Below, piece after piece: positions 10,447 to 27,129 of a DNA stretch of 64,000 nucleotides; within the stretch, counting starts at the first letter, position 1; the number at the start of each line of letters is the position of its first letter. The DNA lies in NCBI GenBank assembly GCA_947498765.1, contig CANMLG010000006.1:1-64000 (forward strand). Reading direction: 5' to 3'. This stretch comes from an uncultured Aquimarina sp. Its GTDB lineage: Bacteria > Bacteroidota > Bacteroidia > Flavobacteriales > Flavobacteriaceae. Position numbers and translations under genes: made by a program. The notes under the pieces were generated by a model. That model made no database searches. It worked only from the letters and a program-made list of their open reading frames with translations, and had not been told where the DNA came from.

Positions 10447-13400
10447 ATGAAAAAGACTAAACACTTTGACAAAATCAAATTTTTATCCCTAGCTATTATG
10501 GGAGTTGGTTTTGTAGGAACAGCTCAAAACGACTGGGATAATATTCCAGTACCTGCGAATGCGGGGCAAGGTATGCAATGGGAATTGCAAGAACAGACCT
10601 CAGATAATTTTAATTACAAATTTGATGCTGTAAACCGAAGAGCAAATTTCGGAAACGGTAAATGGTATAATTTTTATCATAACGCATGGGATGGACCAGG
10701 AACTACTTATTGGAAAAACAATCATGTTTCGGTAGAAGGTGGAAGTCTTAAATTGACTGCATCAAGATGGAATAAAAATAATCAACCAAATCCTCAATAC
10801 CCTTATCCAGGAGCACGAGATGCTTTTAAAATGGATTTGCCAAATAATGGAGTAAATTCAGGTTGTGTAACATCAAATAGTAAAGTTAAATTCCCTGTAT
10901 TTGTTGAGTCTGCAATTAGTGTTGCTAATATTGAATTGGCATCATGTTTTTGGTTATTAAGCCCAGATGACACACAAGAAATAGATATTATAGAAAATTA
11001 TGGAGGTGTGCCAGGTTTTGACCATGTAACGCACATTAGTCACCATAGTTTTATTAGAAATCCTTTTCATGATTACCAACCAAGAGATTGGAATAGCTGG
11101 TGGCCAGATGCCCGTGTAAATAAAAATTACGGATGGGGTGATTGGGCATGGAACGAAGGAAATCGACGATTTTTACGTTTAGGAGTAAATTGGATTAGTC
11201 CAAAACACTTTGAATATTATGTTGATGGAGAAATAGTGCGAGTACTGTATAATGATGCTATTGCGACTAGAATGAATGGAACATGGGAGTATACTTACTA
11301 CGTACAACAAAATCCAGCAAATACTAAAGCTTCTTCTGGCAGGAATATAGGTGGAATGCCTATTAATTATACCTCAGGAAATAGAAATGGATACTCACAA
11401 GTGACATTACATGATACTTCGAGTTCATTTAACTTTTCTAAGTTAAAAGAAGCAAGTAAAGCATCAAATGGTATTAATGTTATAGACCCGGGTAGCTATC
11501 AGAACGGTAGAGGTTTTCATAAAGAAATGGATATTATTATCAATGTGGAGTCTCAAAGTTGGTTAGTGTCAAGAGAGCTTACTCCTAGTGATTCAAATCT
11601 TAATGATCCAAGTAGAAATAGTATGTTAGTGGATTGGGTTAGAGTTTACAAACCAGTTCAAGGTGTAAACAAGCCAGCACCAGTAGTTTTAAATGGAGGA
11701 AAGCTAACAGGAGGTCCATACACATTTACAGTAGGCGATGGTATTGCTGATAACGTATCGGGAGTAAGCGTTTCAGGAAACGAAGGACCAAACACAGGAT
11801 GGGTTGTAACAGATGAAGCATTAAATATATTAGGTACACCACCAACACCAGGGGCAGTAAACTTTGATGGTGCAGGACCAGGAGTATGTTTAATCTGGCA
11901 TATAGCTTACGAAGATGGATTAGAAGGATTATCAGCAGGAAGTAAAATAGCTGATTTAAAAGGAAACTATGATTTATCAGATAACAGTGTGCGAATTAAT
12001 AGAAATGAATTTGTAGCACCAGTAGCTTTAAATGGAGGAACACTAACAGGAGGGCCATACACATTTACAGTAGGCGATGGTATTGCTGATAACGTATCAG
12101 GAGTAAGCGTTTCAGGAAACGAAGGGCCAAACACAGGATGGGTTGTAACAGATGAAGCATTAAATATATTAGGTACACCACCAACACCAGGGGCAGTAAA
12201 CTTTGATGGAGCAGGACCAGGAGTGTGTTTAATCTGGCATATAGCTTATGAAGATGGATTAGAAGGATTATCAGCAGGAAGTAAAATAGCTGATTTAAAA
12301 GGAAGTTATGATTTATCAAATAATAGTGTGCGAATTAATAGAAATGAATTTGTAGAACCAGTAGTTGGTCTTAATGGAGGAACATTAACAGGAGGGCCAT
12401 ACACATTTACAGTAGGCGATGGTATTGCTGATAATGTATCAGGAGTAAGCGTTTCAGGAAATGAAGGGCCAAACACAGGATGGGTTGTAACAGATGAAGC
12501 ATTAAATATATTAGGTACACCACCAACACCAGCGGCAGTAAACTTTGATGGAGCAGGACCAGGAGTATGTTTAATCTGGCATATAGCTTACGAAGATGGA
12601 TTAGAAGGTTTGGCAGCAGGAGGAAAAATTGCTGATTTAAAAGGGAAGTATGACTTATCTGATAATAGTGTGCGCATTATTAGAAACGAAGTGATTACCC
12701 CTGATACAGGAGATACTCCTAATGCAAATTCTACGGTAATTCAAGCGGAAGATTTTATCGAAACTGGAGGTGCATTTAATGGATGGGAAATTTATACTAC
12801 ATCAGCAGGAGTTAAAGGAACAAACTTTAATCAGACAGGAGATTGGGCCGAGTATAATATGACAATTACGGAAGAAGGTTTATATGATTTAACATATTTT
12901 GTTGGAACTGTATTGGATAACACAGCTATTTCATTATATATTGATGGTATTTTTGTAGCTAAAACAGGTGTATACAATAATGGAGATTGGGATACATTTG
13001 TAAAGTTACCTTTAGCATCTCCATTTAATATTGGCGTAGGGGAGCATACAGTTAGGTTAGTTGGTTCTGGTACAAGTACTTCAAAGTATGAGTGGAATAT
13101 GGATTATTTTGAAGTTACTAGAGTTGGTGATTTTATAGATCCTACTGTAGTTGATTTAGATATTGAAGCTGAATCTTTTGTGAACACTGGAGGTAATTTC
13201 GAAGGTTTTGAAATATATACAACTCCAGCAGGTGTAAAAGCAACAAACTTTAATCAGACAGGTGATTGGGCTGAGTATAATGTAAACATTCCTGCTACAG
13301 GTGATTACGATATCACTTATTTTATAAGTACACCACTTAATAATACAGCTGTTGAATTTATTGTTGATGGAGTATCGCAAATGACAGATAATGTTCCTAA

Positions 13401-13830
13401 TAATAATAGTTGGGATAACTTTAGATCATTACAATCTTCTAAAACGGTATTTTTAACTGAAGGAAGTCATGTAATTAGATTACAAGGAGCTGGTAGAAAC
13501 GCGATTAAGTGGGAATGGAATTTAGATCGTTTTAATATAGCTACTGCAGGTTCTAAAACAGCAGCTAAAGCGCTAGATACAATTGATGCAGATTTAATTA
13601 AAATTACTCCAAACCCAGTGGTTGATTTCTTTACGGTTATTGGTTTAGATGCAGATACAGTATTAAACTATGCTATTATAGACATGGTGGGAGGTGTAAT
13701 CAAAACAGGAATACTTACTACTGAAGCTAATGAAGTGAATGGATTGAATGAATTAGCTCAAGGTGTATATTTCGTAAAAATTTACAATGAAATAGGGTTT
13801 AAGAAAGTGATTAAGGTATTGAAAAAATAA
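10447..13830 (+). CDS. Secreted GH16 family agarase/porphyranase-type enzyme with repeats, two CBM6-like domains and T9SS tail
   Basis: A 1127-residue multi-domain secreted enzyme. Domains in order: signal peptide (about 1-26); GH16 catalytic domain (about 30-403) with the active-site motif EIDIIE, giving nucleophile Glu178, Asp180 and acid/base Glu183; three nearly identical modules of about 113 residues (415-527, 528-641, 642-748); two CBM6-like carbohydrate-binding modules (about 760-895 and 900-1038), both with the TGDWAEYN strand; and a T9SS type A sorting domain (about 1045-1127, starting near ITPNPV). GH16 enzymes with this QEID-type motif and CBM6 partners in marine flavobacteria cleave agarose or porphyran. 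Which of the two, or a related galactan, cannot be decided here. No SusC/SusD pair or sulfatase lies nearby. Confidence 0.88.
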   Translation: MKKTKHFDKIKFLSLAIMGVGFVGTAQNDWDNIPVPANAGQGMQWELQEQTSDNFNYKFDAVNRRANFGNGKWYNFYHNAWDGPGTTYWKNNHVSVEGGSLKLTASRWNKNNQPNPQYPYPGARDAFKMDLPNNGVNSGCVTSNSKVKFPVFVESAISVANIELASCFWLLSPDDTQEIDIIENYGGVPGFDHVTHISHHSFIRNPFHDYQPRDWNSWWPDARVNKNYGWGDWAWNEGNRRFLRLGVNWISPKHFEYYVDGEIVRVLYNDAIATRMNGTWEYTYYVQQNPANTKASSGRNIGGMPINYTSGNRNGYSQVTLHDTSSSFNFSKLKEASKASNGINVIDPGSYQNGRGFHKEMDIIINVESQSWLVSRELTPSDSNLNDPSRNSMLVDWVRVYKPVQGVNKPAPVVLNGGKLTGGPYTFTVGDGIADNVSGVSVSGNEGPNTGWVVTDEALNILGTPPTPGAVNFDGAGPGVCLIWHIAYEDGLEGLSAGSKIADLKGNYDLSDNSVRINRNEFVAPVALNGGTLTGGPYTFTVGDGIADNVSGVSVSGNEGPNTGWVVTDEALNILGTPPTPGAVNFDGAGPGVCLIWHIAYEDGLEGLSAGSKIADLKGSYDLSNNSVRINRNEFVEPVVGLNGGTLTGGPYTFTVGDGIADNVSGVSVSGNEGPNTGWVVTDEALNILGTPPTPAAVNFDGAGPGVCLIWHIAYEDGLEGLAAGGKIADLKGKYDLSDNSVRIIRNEVITPDTGDTPNANSTVIQAEDFIETGGAFNGWEIYTTSAGVKGTNFNQTGDWAEYNMTITEEGLYDLTYFVGTVLDNTAISLYIDGIFVAKTGVYNNGDWDTFVKLPLASPFNIGVGEHTVRLVGSGTSTSKYEWNMDYFEVTRVGDFIDPTVVDLDIEAESFVNTGGNFEGFEIYTTPAGVKATNFNQTGDWAEYNVNIPATGDYDITYFISTPLNNTAVEFIVDGVSQMTDNVPNNNSWDNFRSLQSSKTVFLTEGSHVIRLQGAGRNAIKWEWNLDRFNIATAGSKTAAKALDTIDADLIKITPNPVVDFFTVIGLDADTVLNYAIIDMVGGVIKTGILTTEANEVNGLNELAQGVYFVKIYNEIGFKKVIKVLKK
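11689..12690 (+). repeat. Three tandem in-frame repeats of about 340 bases
   Basis: Units run from 11689, 12028 and 12370. Each encodes a module beginning LNGG(K/T)LTGGPYTFTVGDG and ending near RI(N/I)RNE. The DNA of the units is nearly identical, with only scattered mostly silent changes, which points to recent duplication or gene conversion. Related modules recur in secreted flavobacterial proteins, but I know of no assigned function. Confidence 0.95.
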
Positions 13831-17501: not shown

Positions 17502-18215
17502 TTAAAAGCTCATTGGAACTTCCATAATTAAGATACGATTATCTGTTAATGATTTTATTTTAAAAGTATCCGTATTCCAAATTCCATAGCCATCCCTTTT
17601 ATTAAGTTCTTGTTCATTTATTGAAATATTTCCTTCTAAAACAAAAATGTATACTCCATTAGTGTTGTTCTTTAATTGGTAATTTTCAATGGTATGCGCA
17701 TCAAAATTACCTAAATGAAACCAAGCGTTTTGATGAATCCAAACACCTTGATCTTTATTGTTAGGTGATACTATTTGGTATAACTGATTTTTAATTTTAA
17801 TCTCTTTTAATGAAATTTGATCATAACGAGGCGTTACATTTTGTTTGTTTGGAATGATCCAAATTTGAAGGAATTCAACCGCTTGGTCTTTATCATCATT
17901 AAATTCACTATGTAAAACACCTGTGCCAGCACTCATAACCTGTACATCACCTTCTTTTATTACAGTGATGTTCCCCATATTATCCATATGCTTTAAGTTC
18001 CCTTTTAGTGGAATGGATATAATTTCCATATTGTTATGTGGATGTGATCCAAAACCTTTACCTCCGGATACTATATCATCATTAAGTACTCTAAGTACTC
18101 CAAAGTTCATACGTTCTGGGTTTTGGTAATTAGCAAAACTAAAGCTATGATAACTATTTAGCCATCCGTAATTAGCGTGTCCACGGGTATGGGCTTTGTG
18201 TAATATGGTTTTCAT
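17502..18215 (-). CDS. Pirin family protein
   Basis: A 237-residue bicupin. The start is placed at the ATG at 18215 (protein begins MKTILHKAHTRG); an upstream non-ATG extension of 15 residues lacks family similarity. The N-terminal cupin carries the metal ligands in GSHPHNNMEII and GVLHSEFN (His, His, His, Glu pattern), typical of Fe-binding pirins, some of which oxidise quercetin. The C-terminal cupin is less conserved, as usual. It precedes the nitroreductase gene by 15 bases on the same strand. Confidence 0.9.
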   Translation of the reverse strand: MKTILHKAHTRGHANYGWLNSYHSFSFANYQNPERMNFGVLRVLNDDIVSGGKGFGSHPHNNMEIISIPLKGNLKHMDNMGNITVIKEGDVQVMSAGTGVLHSEFNDDKDQAVEFLQIWIIPNKQNVTPRYDQISLKEIKIKNQLYQIVSPNNKDQGVWIHQNAWFHLGNFDAHTIENYQLKNNTNGVYIFVLEGNISINEQELNKRDGYGIWNTDTFKIKSLTDNRILIMEVPMSF

Positions 18216-18257
18216 GGGGGTATTGGTATTGTTAATAAAAATAAGGATATAAACAAT

Positions 18258-18282
18258 CATAGCAAACCAAAGGTTTGCTATG
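18258..18282 (-). terminator. Perfect hairpin between the DUF885 and pirin genes
   Basis: An 11-bp perfect stem (18258-18268 with 18272-18282, loop AAA) lies 48 bases past the DUF885 stop on the minus strand. The following sequence is T-rich but lacks a clean T-tract, so it may be a weak terminator or a leader structure of the pirin gene. Confidence 0.4.
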
Positions 18283-18330
18283 TGTTATTAATAAAATGTT
18301 AAATTATTTTATAGTAAACTATTTATAAAA

Positions 18331-20175
18331 TTATGCTTTACTGGCAACCCATTCGTCAACAAGTTTTTCAAGTACATTTAGAGGAACGGCTCCATTAGTC
18401 AGCACAACATCGTGATATTCTCTGATATCAAATTTATCTCCAAGTTGTTTTTTTGCATTTTCTCGAAGTTCCAAGATTTTATTCATGCCAATTTTGTATG
18501 CTGTAGCTTGACTAGGCATAACCACATGACGTTCGACCATTTTTATAATATCAAATTCTTCAGTAGGCGTATTATCTTTATAGTATTTGATACCCTCTTC
18601 TCGAGTCCACTTTTTGGCATGAATTCCAGTATCTACGACTAAACGACAAGCACGAAATAATTCCATCGAAAGTCTGCCAAAGTCCGAATAAGGATCGCTA
18701 TAAAAGCCCATTTCTTTCGGAATAAATTCAGAATATAAACCCCAACCTTCGGTATAGGCAGTGTAGCGTCCTAATTTTCTAAACATTGGAATGTCCTTTA
18801 GTTCTTGTGCTATAGCAATTTGCATGTGGTGACCTGGAATACCTTCGTGATAAGCTAAAGCCTCCATTTCAAATTTAGACATGGATTTTATTTTGTACAT
18901 ATTGGCATAATAAATTCCTGGTCGAGAGCCATCCATAGCTGGTTGTTGGTAAAAAGCTAAACCAGCTGTTTTTTCGCGAAAAGCTTCTACTTGTTTTACT
19001 TTAATATCAGCTTTGGGTTTGGTTAAAAATAAATCATCTAACTTACTTTTCATACTATCAATAACATGCACAGCTTTTTTCATATATTGTTCGCGACCTT
19101 TATCGGAATCTTCATAGTAAAATTGCTTGCTGTCCTGCATATATTTAAAAAAGCTATTGAGGTCACCTTTAAACTTCACTTTTTCTTTAATAGCTTTCAT
19201 TTCATTTTGAATTCGAGCTACTTCTTTTAAGCCCAATGCGTGAATATCATTGGCAGTCATGCTAGTTGTAGTTGTTCTAGCCAATGCATTATTATAAAAA
19301 GCCTCGCCATTAGGGAATTTCCATGCTCCAGCGTCGGTATTGGCTTTTGTTTCTTGTGCTTTTAATAATGCGATTAATTTATTGTAAGCAGGTTTTACAG
19401 AGCTTATCAAGCTTTCATTAGCCATTTCGATAAGTATATTTTTTTCCTTTTCAGGAAGATCTAAAGCTTTTATTTTTTTTGAAAAGTCAGCTAAAAGTGT
19501 ACTCTCTGTATTTGAATTATCAAAAGGTTTTCCTTTAATAATATTTTTACAAGCGTCAATTACTTTAGGAAATATAAATTTAGGAGGAAGAATATCTTCT
19601 TTTTCTCTGATTTCCAGACCGGTAATTAATTGTTCAAATAGTTTTTGAACTCCTTTTAACCTTAATATATAGGCTTCGGCATCTTTTTTAGAATCAATTA
19701 AATGCATGTTAATTAAAAAGGAAGGCACTCTAGAATGCATTCCAAACATTTGATTAACGGGGTAGTTGTGTAATCTGTATTGATCATCAGAGATATCGTT
19801 TTCTGTTTGTTGAATAGCTAACTTATAACTTAACAATGTAGCTTTGTTCAGTGTTTCGGTGTTTACACTGTCTTTTAAATATTGAAGTCTTTTTTTATTT
19901 CGTAAAAGAGCTTCGTCTTTTGCATGTTGAGAGATATCATCCCATTTATCGTTATTCTTTTTATCACCTAAGTAGGTACATAACATTGGAGATAATTCTT
20001 TTTCAATTTCAAATTGTTCTTGAAACCAATTATTGAGTTTTGTAGAGTTTTGTGCTATTTGTTCTTGCGTAATTTCGGATTCAATGATTGTTGAATGTGA
20101 ACTGTTTTTTTTGCAACTAAAAATAGAAAGTAAAAAAACTATTGAAACTAATGAAATGCTACTACTAGTTTTCAT
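18331..20175 (-). CDS. DUF885 family metallopeptidase-like lipoprotein
   Basis: A 614-residue lipoprotein (lipobox IFSC, Cys near residue 21) of the DUF885 family. The zinc-site motif HEGIPGHH is at about residues 441-448, followed by YTEGWGLYSE, whose Glu is the likely third ligand. The mostly helical fold and length are usual for these carboxypeptidase-like enzymes. It probably degrades peptides in the periplasm or on the outer membrane. It stands alone; about 200 bases upstream lies the remnant that marks the left edge of the peptide cassette. Confidence 0.87.
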   Translation of the reverse strand: MKTSSSISLVSIVFLLSIFSCKKNSSHSTIIESEITQEQIAQNSTKLNNWFQEQFEIEKELSPMLCTYLGDKKNNDKWDDISQHAKDEALLRNKKRLQYLKDSVNTETLNKATLLSYKLAIQQTENDISDDQYRLHNYPVNQMFGMHSRVPSFLINMHLIDSKKDAEAYILRLKGVQKLFEQLITGLEIREKEDILPPKFIFPKVIDACKNIIKGKPFDNSNTESTLLADFSKKIKALDLPEKEKNILIEMANESLISSVKPAYNKLIALLKAQETKANTDAGAWKFPNGEAFYNNALARTTTTSMTANDIHALGLKEVARIQNEMKAIKEKVKFKGDLNSFFKYMQDSKQFYYEDSDKGREQYMKKAVHVIDSMKSKLDDLFLTKPKADIKVKQVEAFREKTAGLAFYQQPAMDGSRPGIYYANMYKIKSMSKFEMEALAYHEGIPGHHMQIAIAQELKDIPMFRKLGRYTAYTEGWGLYSEFIPKEMGFYSDPYSDFGRLSMELFRACRLVVDTGIHAKKWTREEGIKYYKDNTPTEEFDIIKMVERHVVMPSQATAYKIGMNKILELRENAKKQLGDKFDIREYHDVVLTNGAVPLNVLEKLVDEWVASKA

Positions 20176-20381
20176 AATACAAATAAGGTTATAAATGTTA
20201 GCGTTAAATCGTGTTTTATTTTCTAATTTTTATAAAAAAAACAAGGGGGTAAAAATTAGTGAAGCGGAAAGTTATTTTATAATATTTAATTACTTACTCT
20301 TTTTATAATTAACTTAACATTTAAATGGAATGAAAACCTTATATATTTATTTTATATATCGATTAAAAAGTAAAATTTAAT

Positions 20382-20492
20382 TTATTTGCAGCATACAGGG
20401 ATGATTTCTCCTTTAGCTAAGCGAAATTGATCAATTTGTTGATCTCTAAGTGTAGAGGTGTAATCACCTTCGTTTAAAATTTCACCAACACA
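20382..20492 (-). pseudogene. 3'-end remnant of a methyltransferase gene
   Basis: Bases 20390-20441 are identical over 52 bp to 26281-26332, the 3' end of the methyltransferase gene at 26273-27040. In the same frame the remnant encodes GDYTSTL, then QQIDQFRLAKGEIIPVC, ending with its own TAA at 20382-20384. Upstream of the identical block the likeness continues but diverges (LNEG versus VNEV, RD versus TP), and an in-frame stop at 20493-20495 ends it. It is therefore a fragment of a slightly different allele rather than a fresh copy. It marks the left border of the peptide cassette. Confidence 0.85.
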
Positions 20493-20520
20493 TTATTTAA
20501 AGAAGAATATGTGTCATAAA

Positions 20521-20554
20521 AAAAATCCCAATATGGTTAAATATTGGGATTTTT
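20521..20554 (-). terminator. Strong terminator after the cysteine-rich peptide gene
   Basis: A perfect 14-bp stem (20521-20534 with 20541-20554, loop GGTTAA) with A/T tracts on both sides starts seven bases beyond the stop codon of the 59-residue peptide on the minus strand. Confidence 0.9.
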
Positions 20555-20560
20555 TTCATT

Positions 20561-20740
20561 TTATTGGCAAAAAGAAAAGGTATTACAGTGATTATCACAC
20601 TGTTGTATTGTCCATGGAGAACTTCCATTATTAACAGCTGCGTAACAATATTGTTTGCAACTGCAAGGCATTCCACCAGCAACAATATGTTGTGAGCTAT
20701 TAATCTTAAATTTTTTAAACTTTTTTAATGATTTTTTCAT
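20561..20740 (-). CDS. Cysteine-rich peptide with double-glycine leader (peptide A)
   Basis: A 59-residue peptide from the ATG at 20740; longer in-frame starts run into the neighbouring gene. The leader of 23 residues (MKKSLKKFKKFKI, ending AGG at 21-23) ends in the Gly-Gly cleavage site for C39 peptidase transporters. The 36-residue core has six cysteines (26, 28, 32, 48, 52, 58), including a CX3C pair (28-32) and a second CX3C pair (48-52), with Cys26 and Cys58 outside them. It shares leader length and the opening MKKSL..FKKF with the next peptide. It lies 320 bases downstream of the exporter gene on the same strand. The likely product is an exported disulfide-bonded bacteriocin or signalling peptide; which one is unknown. 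Confidence 0.85.
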   Translation of the reverse strand: MKKSLKKFKKFKINSSQHIVAGGMPCSCKQYCYAAVNNGSSPWTIQQCDNHCNTFSFCQ

Positions 20741-20786
20741 TTTAAAGATATTTTTAGTTTCGATTAAATAAGCTAATTTCAATTGC

Positions 20787-20954
20787 TTAGTAGCCATAAG
20801 AATAAAATTCACAAGCTGTCAGGCATCCGTCACTTGTTAGCATGCCAGAGTCAAGGCAGCTATAATAACAAGGCCAAAAATTGGATCCCCCTTCAATTTC
20901 AGATTGTGTTTTTTTTGTTTCGAATTTTTTAAATCGTTCTAATGATTTTTTCAT
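20787..20954 (-). CDS. Cysteine-containing peptide with double-glycine leader (peptide B)
   Basis: A 55-residue peptide (ATG at 20954, TAA at 20787-20789). The leader MKKSLERFKKFE... has 23 residues ending EGG, the same length and cleavage site as peptide A. The 32-residue core (about 24-55) is rich in aromatic residues and has four cysteines at 29, 33, 44 and 48, giving CYYSC and CLTAC, that is CX3C-X10-CX3C. It ends 46 bases before the start of peptide A, and 113 bases separate it from the exporter gene upstream. A TATATTTA box at 20974-20981 on the minus strand could drive the peptide pair separately. It is probably the partner of peptide A. Confidence 0.82.
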   Translation of the reverse strand: MKKSLERFKKFETKKTQSEIEGGSNFWPCYYSCLDSGMLTSDGCLTACEFYSYGY

Positions 20955-21067
20955 TTTAATGTGTTTTTATTATTAAATATACATCTTCTAATATAATAAA
21001 AAATACACATAATAATCTGTAAATAAATAATTTAACATTAATTAAGCTTTGTGTTTTCTGTAAAGTA

Positions 21068-23257
21068 TTACTCAAGATCTAATTGATCCTTTATTAAACG
21101 GTAATATGCACCTTTCATTTTGATTAATTCATTGTGTGTTCCATTTTCTGTAACATGACCATTTTGTAGTACTATAATTTGATCAGAGTTTTTAACAGTA
21201 CTAAGTCTGTGCGCAATGATTATTGTAGTTTTGTCTTTACTAAATAAGTTAATATTTTCTGTAATCTCTTTTTCATTAGAGGCATCCAGAGAGCTAGTTG
21301 CTTCATCTAAGAAAATGATTTCTGGATTTTTGTAAATGGCCCGCGCTATCATAATTCTCTGGCGTTGTCCTGTGCTTAAACCTATACCATCACTTCCTAT
21401 TTTAGTATTTTGTCCAAGAGGGAGTTGATGTATGAATTCACTAATATTAGCTAGTTTAATTGCTTTTTCAAACTTTTCTTGATCAGGATATTCGCTTGAT
21501 ATAGTTATGTTTTTGTATATAGTATCGGAAAAAATATAACCCTCCTGCATTACCACACCACAATTTTTTCTCAATTCATACGCAGAAATTGTGGAAAGAT
21601 CTTTTTCACCTAGATGTATTTTTCCTTCTAGGGGTTCATAAAATTTCAACAACAATTTTAAAAGGGTAGTTTTACCACTTCCACTGAGGCCTACAATAGC
21701 AGTAGTTTTGCCTTTGGGAATAGTTAAATTAAGGTCTTTTAACACCCAAGGGCTTTTATCTCCTCCATACTTAAAGTAAACGTTTTCTAATTTAAATTCA
21801 GCATTAAAATTTTTATCGTCTGAGATAAGTTTCACATTGGAGTCTTCATCTTTTCTATTATGTACGTCACTTAAACGATCTAAACTTATTTTGGCATCTT
21901 GAGCTTGTTGAATAAAATTCACTAATTGTTGAAGTGGACCATTAAGTTGTCCAATTATTTGTGAAGTAGCCATCATCATGCCCAATGTCATATTTCCTTC
22001 TATAACTTTAGTTGCGGCAAAAATAATAATGAGAATGTTTTTTCCTTCATTTATAAATGCTCCTCCAATACTCTGAAATTGTTCAATTTTAAGGCTTGAT
22101 ATACTTACTCTAAAGAGGCGTATTTGGTTTCGTTCCCATTCCCATCTTTTATATTTTTCAGCTTGATTTAGCTTTATTTCTTGCATGCCTTGCACCAACT
22201 GGATTTCTGTTCCTTGTAAAGCAGCAGATTCATTAAATCTTTTATAATCTATTTCCTTTCTTTTTTTTAGAAAAGCTAAAATCCAAACTAAGTATAAAAT
22301 GGATGCAAAGAAGTAAATCATGAAAATAGTACCATTGTAATAGAGTAATATAGCTCCAAAAATAACCATATTGGTCATTGAAAATAAAGTGTCAAGTGAT
22401 GAAGAAGTTAAAAAAAGTTTAATTCGGTCATGATCCCTAATTCTTTGAAGAATATCTCCCATATTTTTACGGTCAAAAAAAACAATGGGTAACTTCATTA
22501 ATTTAATAAGAAAATCAGATATGATAGATATATTTAAGCGGGTTGAGACATGCAGTAAAAGCCAGTTTCTTATGGCTCCAACACTTGCAGTTCCAATAAA
22601 AGCCATTAATTGCGCTATTAGTATTAAGTAAACAAACTTTAGATTACGTTTTTGTACCCCCTCATCTATCAATGCTTGAGTTAAAAATGGAGTTATAAGT
22701 CCTAATAAACTACCTGCAATAAGACTGAATACCATTTGTAACATTAACTTACGATGTGGGTGTAAAAATTTAAAAAAATATTTCATGGATACTTTTTTAT
22801 CAGCGATGTCTTCTTTGTCCTCGTTTATTTCATGAAATCTGGGAGTGGGTTCATAAAGTAAAGCTATACCTTCATGTTTAGATCCATCTGTCCAAGATTT
22901 TAAGAATTCTTCGTGAGTATAACTTATTAGGCCTATGGCAGGATCAGATAGGTAAACTTTTGTTTTAGAGATTTTATAAACGACTACGTAGTGTTTTTTT
23001 TGCCAATGTAGGATTGCTGGGAATGGTTTTTCCGATATTAAAACAGTAAAAGGAATTTTAACAGAAAGTGTTCGGAAACCAATAGCTTCTGAAGCTGAAC
23101 TTAAATCATGCATAGATGATCCTACTTTAGTAACTTTAGCTAAATCTTGTAAGTATTTAATACTGATTTCTTTTCCAAAGTGTTTGGAGATTATACGAAT
23201 ACATGAAGGACCACAGTCCATTTGGTCGATTTGCTTGTAAAATGGAAATTTAGCCAT
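21068..23257 (-). CDS. Peptidase C39 domain ABC exporter
   Basis: A 729-residue bacteriocin-type exporter from the ATG at 23257; a 15-residue extension to a TTG at 23302 precedes the conserved start and is unlikely. Domains: C39 cysteine peptidase (about 1-130) with catalytic Cys15 in QMDCGPSC, His89 in KKHYVVVY and Asp105 in LSDP; six-helix membrane domain (about 165-450); ATPase domain with Walker A GLSGSGKTT, signature LSTGQ and Walker B IIFLDEA. It cuts leaders after Gly-Gly and exports the cores with ATP. Its start overlaps the HlyD stop by eight bases, so the two are translationally coupled. Peptides A and B downstream are the obvious substrates. Confidence 0.93.
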   Translation of the reverse strand: MAKFPFYKQIDQMDCGPSCIRIISKHFGKEISIKYLQDLAKVTKVGSSMHDLSSASEAIGFRTLSVKIPFTVLISEKPFPAILHWQKKHYVVVYKISKTKVYLSDPAIGLISYTHEEFLKSWTDGSKHEGIALLYEPTPRFHEINEDKEDIADKKVSMKYFFKFLHPHRKLMLQMVFSLIAGSLLGLITPFLTQALIDEGVQKRNLKFVYLILIAQLMAFIGTASVGAIRNWLLLHVSTRLNISIISDFLIKLMKLPIVFFDRKNMGDILQRIRDHDRIKLFLTSSSLDTLFSMTNMVIFGAILLYYNGTIFMIYFFASILYLVWILAFLKKRKEIDYKRFNESAALQGTEIQLVQGMQEIKLNQAEKYKRWEWERNQIRLFRVSISSLKIEQFQSIGGAFINEGKNILIIIFAATKVIEGNMTLGMMMATSQIIGQLNGPLQQLVNFIQQAQDAKISLDRLSDVHNRKDEDSNVKLISDDKNFNAEFKLENVYFKYGGDKSPWVLKDLNLTIPKGKTTAIVGLSGSGKTTLLKLLLKFYEPLEGKIHLGEKDLSTISAYELRKNCGVVMQEGYIFSDTIYKNITISSEYPDQEKFEKAIKLANISEFIHQLPLGQNTKIGSDGIGLSTGQRQRIMIARAIYKNPEIIFLDEATSSLDASNEKEITENINLFSKDKTTIIIAHRLSTVKNSDQIIVLQNGHVTENGTHNELIKMKGAYYRLIKDQLDLE

Positions 23258-24521
23258 TAATTTTTGATAAATTATGCTTGAACTTAAAGAAGAAACGCTC
23301 AATTAAGCGTAAATCATTTGTGATTATTTCACAAGAACCTTTCATATGATGTACATGTGGCAATTGTTTTTTGTAATTTGTTTTGAGACCATTAGGTAAA
23401 AAAATTTTTATTAAATACCCATCTTTTGTATATACTGGAGATATGTCTTCAATTTCGGCTTCTATAGTACCAAATTCTTGAAAAGGAAAATCATCCATTT
23501 TCAATAAGACCTTTTGTCCTTTGTTAACCTTGCCAACTCCTGATTGATTTACATAAGCAAAGGCATACGAATTTTTAACTTTAGGTATTATATAAACCAG
23601 TTCATCTCCGGAATTAATTTGTTGACTATTATTTAAAATTTTATGAAAATGGGCTTTCCCTGAAATTGGAGCTTTAATCACTTGGGTATATTCCCATTTT
23701 TCAATTAGTTCAGTAAGATTTTTATAGCTGTTTTCAATTTTATTTTTTAAGTCAAATAATGTCTTTTTGTAGGTGATGTTTAATTCAGATTTTTGATTTT
23801 TTAATGAACCTAAAGTTGATTTTAGTGAAATATTTTCTTTTTCATTTTGGTCTATAGAAGTAATTGCAGTAAGAAATAATTGTTTTGATTTTAAGAATTC
23901 GGAATTAGAAATAACACCTTTTACATATAAAATAGAATCTCTTTGGAAATTTTTTTTTTCAATTTTTAGTTTTTTTTCTTCTTGCTGAATTAGATGAGCT
24001 TGTTTTTCTACGAGTCGATTTTTATAGGTCATTTCAGTTGAAATATTTTTCTGTTTATGTCTTTCAAGATTATTATCTAAAAATTCATTAAAAGAATTTA
24101 TGGCAAAATTGAGTTCTTTTATACTAGATCCAAATTTTCCAAGATTTCTGGTGTCAATATCAAAAGGAGAATATTTATTAATAGAATCCTTAAGAAGTAG
24201 TAGATTCTTGATTTCTAATATACTTTTGTAAGTTGTTTCATTTTCAATATAGCCTAAAATATCACCTTTTTTAACCAATTTATTATTGACACCTTGTTTT
24301 AAGGTAAGTAAACCACTTGATTTACTTACTATAAGAACGGGTTCAGCTTCAGAAGCTATAGATGTATTAGAAACAATTGTTTCAGGGTATTTGATTAAGT
24401 AGGAAAAGAAGAAAAATAATAAAATAATTAAAAATAATATAAATGAACCGATCCTGGTTAACCAAGTTGGAGATTGACCAATAATACCTTGGCTATAATT
24501 AGACTGAAAACTTTGTGGCAT
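23250..24521 (-). CDS. HlyD family secretion adaptor
   Basis: A 423-residue periplasmic adaptor with one N-terminal membrane helix (about residues 22-46), a biotinyl/lipoyl-like half (about 60-100, VLIVSKSSGLLTL), a long lysine- and glutamate-rich coiled-coil stretch (about 130-280), a second lipoyl half (about 285-300, VIKAPISGKAHF) and a beta-barrel region to about 400. It should link the C39 exporter to an outer-membrane channel, which is not encoded here. It is the first gene of the minus-strand unit, 154 bases from the divergent VKOR-thioredoxin gene. Confidence 0.9.
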   Translation of the reverse strand: MPQSFQSNYSQGIIGQSPTWLTRIGSFILFLIILLFFFFSYLIKYPETIVSNTSIASEAEPVLIVSKSSGLLTLKQGVNNKLVKKGDILGYIENETTYKSILEIKNLLLLKDSINKYSPFDIDTRNLGKFGSSIKELNFAINSFNEFLDNNLERHKQKNISTEMTYKNRLVEKQAHLIQQEEKKLKIEKKNFQRDSILYVKGVISNSEFLKSKQLFLTAITSIDQNEKENISLKSTLGSLKNQKSELNITYKKTLFDLKNKIENSYKNLTELIEKWEYTQVIKAPISGKAHFHKILNNSQQINSGDELVYIIPKVKNSYAFAYVNQSGVGKVNKGQKVLLKMDDFPFQEFGTIEAEIEDISPVYTKDGYLIKIFLPNGLKTNYKKQLPHVHHMKGSCEIITNDLRLIERFFFKFKHNLSKING

Positions 24522-24600
24522 ATGTTAGTTTTAAACTCAAAGTAAATATATGATCTTTGTAATAATATTACGAAATATTTTAAAAATAGTAGTGTCAAAA

Positions 24601-24632
24601 TTTTTGATAACCAGTATTTTAAAATAGTTTTA
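24601..24632 (+). promoter_or_regulatory. Candidate promoter of the VKOR-thioredoxin gene
   Basis: TTTTTG (24601-24606) followed 18 bases later by TAGTTTTA (24625-24632) resembles the Bacteroidetes TTTG / TAnnTTTG promoter with one mismatch. It lies 43 bases before the ATG at 24676. Confidence 0.4.
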
Positions 24633-24675
24633 CTATAAGAGAGGTGTTAAATGAAGATATCTAATTTTTACTTAT

Positions 24676-26256
24676 ATGAGAGAACAAATATTTAATCTTA
24701 TTTCAATAATATTAAAAGATAAAAAAGTTTTGTTTACAACTAGTTTTCTCAGCAAATCCATAGATGCTCATAAACATTCAAATCCTTTTATTTCGATTGA
24801 GAAAATTCTTAACGAATATTTTATAGAAAATATGGTAGTTAAAATTTCTGCAAAGGAATTAAAAGAAATTACTACTCCAGCATTAACAATTATTAATGAG
24901 AATGAATTAGTTCTTTTAAAAAAAATTGAAGAAGATAAGATTACATATATAGACACAAATAATAGAATCAAAGTTGAAGTTCTTAATGAATTTTTAAAGA
25001 AATGGAAAACACTTACTTTATTAATAGGTACAGATGATACAGGTTTTGAATCGGGCTATATTAACAATATATATAAAGAGAAATTTGAAAAGTTAAGTAA
25101 AAGAAAAGGTGTTTTATTAGTAACGGGAACTATTATATTTGGAATTGTTTTAACCTGTTTTTCTTCATTTAATTTAATAATATTAAGCAAAATATTAGGT
25201 TTAATCACAAGTGTTTTATTAATTAGATCATCAAATGGATATGAATCTAGCTTAATAAAAAGTGTATGTGAATCCTCTAGTATTACAAGTTGTACGGGAG
25301 TTTTAAACTCTAAATCATCTCAATTATTAGGTGTAAAGCTTGTTGATATTGTTTTTTTTTACTTTTCTTTAACTTCTATTATTATTTTAATAGGAAGTAT
25401 ACTTAATGATACTTTTTTTATTGCTCTAACACGATTTTTAAATTTATTAGCAATCCCATTAACACTTTATTCTATCTTTTACCAATTTAAATTAAAAAAA
25501 TTGTGTGTATTGTGTAATGTGATATTGGTTGTTCTCTGGTTGGAGGTTTATTTTCTGTATAGAATACCTATAGATTTTACTGGTTTAAATATTAAAAATG
25601 TAATTTCTTTATTGTTCATAGCTTTGTTAATAATAAGTAGTCTAGTATTTATTAATAATTACTTTAAACATAAATATCTTTTTGAACAGGCTGACAGGAA
25701 GTTACAATTACTATTAAAGGATAATGAATTACTGTCATCTGTAATAGAAAATGGTTCAGAAATTTCTGGCTTAGAATATGATAATATGGAGATTCTTAGT
25801 GAGAATTCATTACATCAAATAGTTATAGTTGTAAGGCATGATTGTGAGCCATGTAGTCATGCCTATAAAAGTTTAAAACAATTAATGGATTATATGTCAC
25901 CTTATGTTTCTTTAAAAGTTGTTTTATTGACAAATGTTAAGAATAAAGACTCTGAAAAAGCAGTTGCTAAAATATTTGATTTTTTTAAAAAGCATATTGA
26001 TTTAAAAACAAGAAGAAAATTTATGGATTCTTATTTTGACATTAAAAATGATTCTAAAAAACTTAAAGTATGGCTGGAAGAGAATAATACTATTCAATAT
26101 GAATATCAAGATAAATTTACTAATGATATAAAATGGGCTAAATCTAATAATATTAATTATACCCCCTTTTTTATTATTAACAATAAGAAAGTAAATAAAA
26201 ATATAAGTGTTGAAGAAATTACTCTCTATTTAAAGAATAAGTTACTTAATGAATAA
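24676..26256 (+). CDS. VKOR-thioredoxin membrane protein with degenerate C39-like N-terminus
   Basis: A 526-residue protein in three parts. Residues 1-118 look like a C39 domain without its active site: PALTIINENELVLLKKIEEDKITYID aligns by eye with the His-strand-Asp part of the neighbouring exporter, but there is no Cys-Gly-Pro motif and the His is gone. Residues 145-330 hold about five membrane helices with the VKOR cysteines 198 and 206 and the CVLC pair 277/280. The C-terminal part is a thioredoxin domain with CEPC (390-393) on the outer face. Such fusions pass electrons from thiols to quinone and so form disulfides. It is divergent from the exporter unit and most likely oxidises the exported cysteine-rich peptides. 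The C39 comparison is an alignment by eye. Confidence 0.85.
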   Translation: MREQIFNLISIILKDKKVLFTTSFLSKSIDAHKHSNPFISIEKILNEYFIENMVVKISAKELKEITTPALTIINENELVLLKKIEEDKITYIDTNNRIKVEVLNEFLKKWKTLTLLIGTDDTGFESGYINNIYKEKFEKLSKRKGVLLVTGTIIFGIVLTCFSSFNLIILSKILGLITSVLLIRSSNGYESSLIKSVCESSSITSCTGVLNSKSSQLLGVKLVDIVFFYFSLTSIIILIGSILNDTFFIALTRFLNLLAIPLTLYSIFYQFKLKKLCVLCNVILVVLWLEVYFLYRIPIDFTGLNIKNVISLLFIALLIISSLVFINNYFKHKYLFEQADRKLQLLLKDNELLSSVIENGSEISGLEYDNMEILSENSLHQIVIVVRHDCEPCSHAYKSLKQLMDYMSPYVSLKVVLLTNVKNKDSEKAVAKIFDFFKKHIDLKTRRKFMDSYFDIKNDSKKLKVWLEENNTIQYEYQDKFTNDIKWAKSNNINYTPFFIINNKKVNKNISVEEITLYLKNKLLNE

Positions 26257-26272
26257 TATGCGTTTAGTATTT

Positions 26273-27040
26273 CTATTTATAGCATACAGGGATGATTTCT
26301 CCTTTAGCTAAGCGAAATTGATCAATTTGTTGGGGAGTTAATGTGGAGGTGTAATCAACTTCATTAACTTTAAATCCCATATTGCGAAGTTTGTTAAAAT
26401 AATCCCTTCCATATACACGTACATGGTCATATTGACCAAAAATTTGTGCACGTTTTTTTGGGTCAGTAATAGTATTATCTTCAAAAGTAGTTTCTCGATT
26501 TAAATCTTGCGGAATTTGTAAAATAGCGGTGCCACCTGGAGCAAGTACCCTTAGTAATTCTTGCATGGCTTTGGTATCATCGGGAATATGTTCTAATACA
26601 TGATTGCACAAAATGAAATCGAATTCATTATCCTTAAATGGAAGTTGGCAAATATCAGCTTTTACATCTGCTAAAGGGGAAACTAAATCGGTAGTTGTAT
26701 AATTTAGTGTATTTACTTTTTTAAATCGTTTATAAAAAGCCTGCTCAGGAGCAAAGTGTAATAAACGTTGAGGTTTAGTAAATAAGTCAGTTTCGTTTTT
26801 TAAATACAACCAAAGCAATCTATGACGTTCTAATGAAAGGGTAGAAGGTGAGAGGACATTAGGTCTAGGGTTTTCGTATCCATAGGGTAAAAAAGTGCGA
26901 AAACTTTTACCATCAATTGGATCAGTATATTTTTTGCCTTTTAAAAAGAAACTAAAAATAGGTCGTATATAGTAACTAACTCTAATTAAAAAAGGTCGGG
27001 GAAATAGGCTTAATCCTTTTTTAAAAATATACTTAATCAT
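26273..27040 (-). CDS. SAM-dependent class I methyltransferase
   Basis: A 255-residue protein. After about 80 residues, a seven-strand methyltransferase core is recognisable: LLHFAPEQAF (a variant motif I), DICQLPFKDNEFDFILCNHVLEHI (motifs II and III, an SAM-dependent methyltransferase 11 hallmark) and LRVLAPGGTAILQIP (motif IV-V). The substrate is unknown. The last 30 residues are repeated in a fragment at 20382-20492. It is convergent with the VKOR-thioredoxin gene, only 16 bases apart, with no clear terminator between them. The gene and its neighbour map are on the same strand. Confidence 0.85.
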   Translation of the reverse strand: MIKYIFKKGLSLFPRPFLIRVSYYIRPIFSFFLKGKKYTDPIDGKSFRTFLPYGYENPRPNVLSPSTLSLERHRLLWLYLKNETDLFTKPQRLLHFAPEQAFYKRFKKVNTLNYTTTDLVSPLADVKADICQLPFKDNEFDFILCNHVLEHIPDDTKAMQELLRVLAPGGTAILQIPQDLNRETTFEDNTITDPKKRAQIFGQYDHVRVYGRDYFNKLRNMGFKVNEVDYTSTLTPQQIDQFRLAKGEIIPVCYK

Positions 27041-27129
27041 AGTAGTAAGTTACTTGTTTTGATTTGGATTAAAAAACCAATTTTTAATTTGAAAATACAA
27101 GGATAGTTTTAATTAAAGTTTTAGTAATT

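Follow-up and report, generated by a model that had tools for sequence, protein, structure and literature searches.

How, and on which face of the membrane, would the cysteines of small exported peptides be paired in a locus that brings both its own exporter and its own oxidase? The question is raised by a cassette of five genes in an uncultured Aquimarina sp., from a genus of marine flavobacteria (assembly GCA_947498765.1, contig CANMLG010000006.1, positions 1 to 64,000, a stretch of 64,000 nucleotides referred to here as the window), in which two cysteine-rich peptides with Gly-Gly leaders accompany a C39 peptidase/ATP-binding cassette (ABC) exporter and a protein, P0005, that joins a vitamin K epoxide reductase (VKOR) core to a thioredoxin domain. 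For exported bacterial peptides, the usual view places disulfide formation outside the cytosol. On balance, we favour the view that the cassette is a horizontally inserted peptide-export unit with a dedicated, leader-guided disulfide oxidase: it is one small member, carried on an insertion, of a peptide system found across Bacteroidota, and its oxidase looks like a leader-guided, cytosol-facing VKOR.

The cassette spans positions 20383-26365 and, as read from open reading frame (ORF) translations in the window, holds five genes and a repeat copy at each end; the peptide, exporter and adaptor genes all lie on the minus strand and the P0005 gene diverges from them on the plus strand:

20383-20489, minus strand: repeat copy, a duplicate of the 3′ end of a methyltransferase gene and one end of the insert, encoding a 35-residue fragment with 77% identity to the C-terminus of that gene's product
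20519-20556, between pepA and the repeat: terminator-like hairpin with a 16-pair stem followed by a T run, from a consensus scan only
20561-20740, minus strand: pepA, 59 residues, Gly-Gly leader and a 36-residue core with 6 Cys
20787-20954, minus strand: pepB, 55 residues, Gly-Gly leader and a 32-residue core with 4 Cys
21068-23257, minus strand: P0003, C39 peptidase/ABC exporter (PF03412, PF00664, PF00005)
23250-24521, minus strand: P0004, HlyD-type adaptor (PF13437), its gene overlapping the exporter gene by 8 nucleotides
24676-26256, plus strand: P0005, a fusion of C39-like domain, extra transmembrane helix, VKOR and thioredoxin, assigned from Pfam, alignments, a predicted model, fold matches and charge pattern
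26274-26365, minus strand: the other end of the insert, a repeat copy that forms the 3′ end of the intact methyltransferase gene
26273-27040, minus strand: P0006, methyltransferase (Pfam Methyltransf_11), the insertion target, left intact

A preliminary description of this DNA, made from its letters alone, had listed two Gly-Gly peptides with four and six core cysteines, a C39 ABC exporter with its Cys, His and Asp, an HlyD adaptor and a divergent VKOR-thioredoxin protein, all of which the translations and Pfam matches bear out. The exporter (Peptidase_C39, E = 6e-33) carries Cys15, His89 and Asp105, read from its translation, at what we take to be the positions of the C39 catalytic triad, and the exporters most similar to it at other VKOR loci are 53-56% identical; the adaptor matches HlyD_3 at E = 8e-13. 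For pepA we use the ATG at 20740 as the start, where the ORF list uses an upstream GTG instead, and neither pepA nor pepB has a family match in Pfam or NCBIfam. The same description reported no lanthipeptide, cyclodehydratase or radical SAM gene, which is true within the cassette: by Pfam, NCBIfam and the ORF list, its five genes match other families or none, and no lanthipeptide dehydratase or cyclase, cyclodehydratase or radical SAM gene is among them. What it did not contain is the C39-like domain of P0005, the extra transmembrane helix and the flanking 92-nucleotide direct repeat.

Fusions of this kind lie next to such peptides well beyond the window. We counted as a peptide any ATG-initiated ORF of 38-110 residues with Gly-Gly in its first 32 residues and a hydrophobic residue at position -4, and we pooled 108 VKOR loci, namely 40 of 74 places outside the window in the genus and, from the best 80 of 234 further places, the 68 loci distinct from those 40. 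A Gly-Gly peptide with at least two core cysteines lies within 3 kb of the VKOR gene in 30 of the 40 genus loci and 59 of the 68 others (89/108 pooled). Homologues lying mostly away from such peptides were what the preliminary description had named as telling against its dedicated disulfide-peptide locus; the linkage instead supports that proposal. The 196 linked peptides hold 2 to 10 cysteines (195 or 196, depending on how the VKOR ends are set), and 181 have an even number against 15 with an odd one, a bias that fits paired cysteines; a further 40 Gly-Gly ORFs at this distance contain one Cys or none. The density of peptides with at least four cysteines falls from 26.7 per 100 kb inside the 3-kb range to 8.1 per 100 kb at 5 kb or more from the VKOR gene. 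Besides pepA and pepB, no Gly-Gly peptide with at least two cysteines was found in the 64-kb window, nor any in ten control methyltransferase stretches totalling 166,275 bp. Among 184 linked leaders, Leu stands at -12 in 161 and Glu at -8 in 127, both among the positions named for C39 substrates in the accessible text of PMC6363468. The linkage of the VKOR fusion to even-Cys Gly-Gly peptides is a strong computational result.

The architecture of P0005 suggests why it might be tied to leaders. The protein has 526 residues, with redox cysteines at 198, 206, 277, 280, 390 and 393, and it matches the Pfam VKOR family at 35.4 bits against a cut-off of 27.5. Its VKOR core, which aligns with solved VKORs from residue 163 onward, contains the four cysteines of such cores (a loop pair and CxxC); C198, C206, C277 and C280 are conserved in 109/109 proteins, the CxxC having been part of the search pattern for 80 loci. 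Ahead of the core lies a C39-like domain (about residues 1-120): the predicted model of residues 1-122 matches the C39-like domain of HlyB (3zua) and the protease domain of AMS/PCAT transporters (6mpz, PCAT1). No cysteine of P0005 precedes residue 161, which leaves the C39-like domain without a catalytic nucleophile, and none of 110 fused proteins has Cys-Gly in the 45 residues before the column of His32. As modelled, the N-terminus of P0005 is a C39 fold that has no nucleophile. One locus elsewhere (L194, G005:C23) has a similar open frame of 360 residues that lacks an in-frame N-terminal C39-like part, and looks truncated.

The second unusual feature concerns the membrane. Between the C39-like domain and the VKOR core lies an extra hydrophobic helix, which reaches a mean hydropathy of 1.6 in 99 of 110 fused proteins and of 1.3 in 108, values reached in 0/13 VKORs lacking the domain; with a single helix added, the redox sites, the thioredoxin domain and the C39-like domain would all share one face of the membrane. 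The charges flanking the helices are reversed as well. In the 110 fused proteins, the active-site side has 0.130 Lys plus Arg per residue and the opposite side 0.032, whereas the corresponding values in 15 VKORs without the domain are 0.036 and 0.158. The active-site side is the more positive in 109/110 fused proteins (the exception is L102) and in 0/15 others, and this persists after thinning at 50% identity (51/51 versus 0/9) and at 40% (31/31 versus 0/8). The comparison set derives from 31 loci (L197-L227), 17 of which gave an ORF; L198 was dropped for want of a VKOR alignment and L207 was moved to the fused set on account of its N-terminus, leaving 15, two of which (L211 and L219) carry long, unassigned N-terminal extensions. 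When searched with a model of the N-terminal domain of the family, 109/110 fused proteins match and 0/15 of the comparison set. The evidence for a reversed charge pattern is strong. Read with the positive-inside rule, it predicts that the fused proteins are inverted, with the C39-like domain, the cysteine pairs and the thioredoxin domain facing the cytosol. The preliminary description had implied ordinary VKOR-thioredoxin chemistry on exported peptides, a point on which the charge pattern leads to the opposite prediction, a cytosolic active site.

Taken together, these features suggest a leader-guided, quinone-coupled oxidase, probably cytosolic, that feeds the C39 exporter. The Gly-Gly leader of a precursor would dock on the dead C39 domain of P0005, whereupon the fused DsbA-like domain (CEPC) would donate a disulfide to the core cysteines of pepA or pepB; the VKOR core (C198/C206 and CVLC) would then reoxidize the DsbA-like domain, with the quinone pool receiving the electrons. 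The C39 exporter would bind the same leader, cut after Gly-Gly and export the folded peptide through HlyD and an outer-membrane factor of the host. In this scheme the whole oxidase, leader-binding domain included, would face the cytosol, the extra transmembrane helix and the reversed charges inverting the VKOR core, and oxidation would precede export; the exported peptides may have an antibacterial use. That the family amounts to a new class of peptide-maturation enzyme, in which a leader-binding pseudo-peptidase domain brings Gly-Gly precursors to a VKOR that is quinone-linked and inverted by nature and that forms disulfides in the cytosol before cleavage and export, across Bacteroidota and here on an insertion with no integrase, is a proposition for which we find the case evenly balanced.

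The alternative that survives best, unlikely as we judge it, is a dedicated disulfide locus with periplasmic oxidation, in which the VKOR core would sit in its usual orientation, the C39-like domain would lie outside and the thioredoxin domain would oxidize peptides as they leave the exporter. The periplasm is the usual site of bacterial VKOR chemistry, and the cytosol is reducing, which speaks against the cytosolic scheme. TlpA-type thioredoxins occur at some loci: AhpC-TSA proteins make up 6/96 neighbouring ORFs in 14 loci, which fits periplasmic redox work. Bacteroidetocin loci likewise pair a thiol oxidoreductase with an exporter, with no cytosolic step claimed in the accessible text of PMC6671954. 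Two observations resist this alternative: the reversed charges of 109/110 fused proteins, found in 0/15 others, and the place of the leader-binding fold, which would lie where leaders are not expected because exporters of this family are known to cleave them off, by way of their peptidase domain, on the cytosolic face.

Several further results weigh against the leader-guided, cytosolic oxidase. Its orientation rests on charge statistics from homologues that are related to one another and a comparison set that is small and partly from one genus. The Pfam C39 match of P0005 (20.2 bits) falls just below the cut-off of 22, the model of the protein has a predicted template-modelling score of 0.49, and in the tree P0005 is a long branch of unsure placement in a mixed clade of 37 rows. 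The C39-like domain is not surely dead throughout the family, given that in 15/110 proteins at least one Cys precedes the conserved column of His32; in three Chitinophagaceae loci (L121, L135 and L140) a Cys lies near the expected nucleophile site with no Gly following, perhaps a half-way state. As for the linkage, 19/108 loci have no such peptide within 3 kb under the definition used, and only 53/108 have a C39 exporter at a distance of 6 kb or less, some loci being cut by contig ends. In the 68 further loci, 133/138 peptides are on the VKOR strand, and those of the window are on the opposite one. At -7 most linked leaders carry Gln instead of Leu, and the leaders of pepA and pepB lack both Leu at -12 and Glu at -8.

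A less probable alternative is that the products are thioether or otherwise modified members of the ribosomally synthesized and post-translationally modified peptides (RiPPs), with the modifying enzyme encoded elsewhere and the disulfides secondary. The pepA and pepB cores contain 6 and 7 Ser/Thr, a thiopeptide-type protein is encoded near a VKOR relative in Emticicia, and on a Parabacteroides plasmid a LanC-family gene and glycosyltransferase genes stand beside another. We regard this alternative as improbable, however: no such gene is in the cassette, and the even-Cys bias (181/196) fits paired cysteines. Lant_dehydr_N has no match in the cassette's own genome, a weak negative since the control genomes gave none either. 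The gene company of the family in other hosts nevertheless qualifies the preliminary claim that oxidative folding is the only modification: elsewhere the VKOR family occurs with LanC-family, glycosyltransferase, DUF6734 and TlpA-type genes, and disulfides as the sole modification are therefore no general rule in this family. The DUF6734 and TlpA-type neighbours come from a Pfam scan of 14 loci, covering 96 of 103 ORFs and the first 25 of 81 families, beyond which rarer RiPP enzymes could lie; seven large neighbouring ORFs scanned separately gave no RiPP enzyme, and one of them had no match at all.

Some of these surroundings are worth recording in their own right. On the Parabacteroides distasonis plasmid (L191, NZ_OY725766.1), the P0005 relative lies in one gene run with a small ORF, DUF4369, the LanC-family protein, two glycosyltransferases and a C39-type ABC transporter. 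DUF6734, of unknown function, recurs near the VKOR fusion (6/96 ORFs, best E = 5e-114; L085, L086, L093 and L186). In a tight Aquimarina clade of the fusion (L075-L081), the peptides are near-identical and have two cysteines (CGG..IEC core), with another C39 exporter 3-4 kb away and no HlyD detected at these loci.

The weakest alternative, that P0005 is a general oxidase or reductase beside the peptides by chance, agrees with its being the sole VKOR found in its own genome, but we think it very improbable given that 89/108 loci are linked and a C39 fold is fused to the enzyme; moreover, the three genomes closest by methyltransferase gene (G044, G002 and G003) have no VKOR match, and therefore the P0005 gene is not a housekeeping one here.

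The same three genomes reveal how the cassette is placed. It is flanked by a direct repeat of 92 nucleotides with 87% identity (20383-20474 and 26274-26365), whose core is identical over 52 nucleotides (20390-20441 and 26281-26332). The repeat duplicates the end of the methyltransferase gene: the C-terminal fragment encoded by the left copy matches the methyltransferase at E = 1e-9, and, among 52 genus genomes, such a C-terminal duplicate was found in the cassette's own genome only (E 0.001), whereas a near full-length homologue of P0006, with at least 62% identity, is present in 51, its own genome included. G044, whose methyltransferase gene is the nearest (94%), has an empty site: window segments 26274-27109 and 17510-20474 align there to neighbouring parts of L061 whose sole overlap is the repeat; G002 has the same arrangement, and G003 the same order with about 0.4 kb in place of the cassette. 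The cassette has a G+C content of 27.3%, below that of all 94 overlapping segments of like size; the remainder of the window has 31.1%. The direct repeats duplicating the gene's 3′ end and the empty site in relatives establish that the cassette is an insertion, and to this extent it is self-contained, as the preliminary description had called it; the genes for an outer-membrane factor and an integrase are not in it, nor is one for a separate five-transmembrane protein between 20383 and 26365. Beyond the five genes it has no ORF longer than 67 residues, and therefore no integrase gene. The cassette may have entered with the help of a recombinase that acted in trans or has since been lost, or else through one crossover with a circle that carried the end of the gene; the present data do not separate such a crossover from site-specific integration. 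No tRNA gene was found in 12000-33000. Consensus scanning for terminators gave 4 sites in 6.5 kb, where shuffled sequence would yield 2.1, and a promoter scan was uninformative (41 found, 40.8 expected).

As to where the insert came from, relatives of P0005 at E = 1e-40 or better were found in its own genome only among 397 family genomes, with a few candidates scored in each. Phage sequences gave no match; five plasmid records matched, all at less than 60% identity, and label the proteins only as 'vitamin K epoxide reductase family protein'. Across 121 VKOR-fusion loci, the window included, there are 39 pairs of flanking direct repeats. Such repeats, of 52-153 nucleotides and 90-98% identity, bracket the loci L179 (1799-1850/15990-16041), L117 (1306-1383/7639-7716) and L074 (7833-7985/14118-14270); these are direct repeats alone and carry no general claim of mobility, and no tRNA was found at the four repeat-flanked loci checked.

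How much of this is new has to be judged against known systems. Bacteroidetocin loci encode Gly-Gly peptides with four cysteines, a C39 ABC exporter and a thiol oxidoreductase without which the activity is attenuated, and gel shifts of the peptides are consistent with disulfides (PMC6671954, accessible text). The cassette resembles them in placing Gly-Gly leader peptides with cysteine pairs next to a C39 ABC exporter. By the description in that text, the bacteroidetocin region has four genes, with a separate five-transmembrane protein, a separate thiol oxidoreductase and no HlyD among the four, whereas the cassette has an HlyD protein and a single C39-like/VKOR/thioredoxin fusion. Given this precedent of 2019, the general concept behind the preliminary description, a dedicated oxidase for exported peptides, is not new; the observation of that description is confirmed and its interpretation partly supported. 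Like the Synechococcus VKOR (3kp9/4nv6), P0005 has a VKOR core, a thioredoxin domain and three cysteine pairs; unlike it, P0005 adds the N-terminal C39-like domain and the extra transmembrane helix, and the fused family reverses the charge pattern of the 15 VKORs compared. The domain shares its fold with those of HlyB and AMS/PCAT but sits on an oxidase, not a transporter, and has no nucleophile.

Work on the Aeropyrum pernix VKOR reportedly proposed that it acts on the cytosolic side; to our knowledge, neither that protein nor the CyDisCo system has a leader-binding domain. In CyDisCo, an inverted VKOR is an engineered format for cytosolic disulfides (accessible text of PMC5471842); the VKOR of P0005 is likewise proposed to work on the cytosolic side and, unlike that of CyDisCo, is not engineered. 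We found no report of the fusion, the reversed charges or the even-Cys linkage in the literature searched, which leaves most subscription papers outside, and none of the papers naming vitamin K epoxide reductase with C39, or VKOR with bacteriocin, was on the subject by its title and the start of its abstract. If the leader-guided reading is true, disulfide formation would be a programmed step akin to other RiPP modifications, and this might explain Cys-rich peptides in bacteria said to be without general disulfide machinery, as is stated of Bacteroides in PMC6671954. The combination of C39-like domain, VKOR and thioredoxin would be a sequence handle for finding many Cys-rich peptides, and the enzyme could become a tool for the cytosolic production of disulfide peptides.

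Elsewhere in the window, an ORF at 10447-13830 (1127 residues) contains three 339-bp tandem copies, 94% alike, at 11676-12690; staggered blastn matches to them in G044 and G002 suggest that the copy number may vary between relatives.
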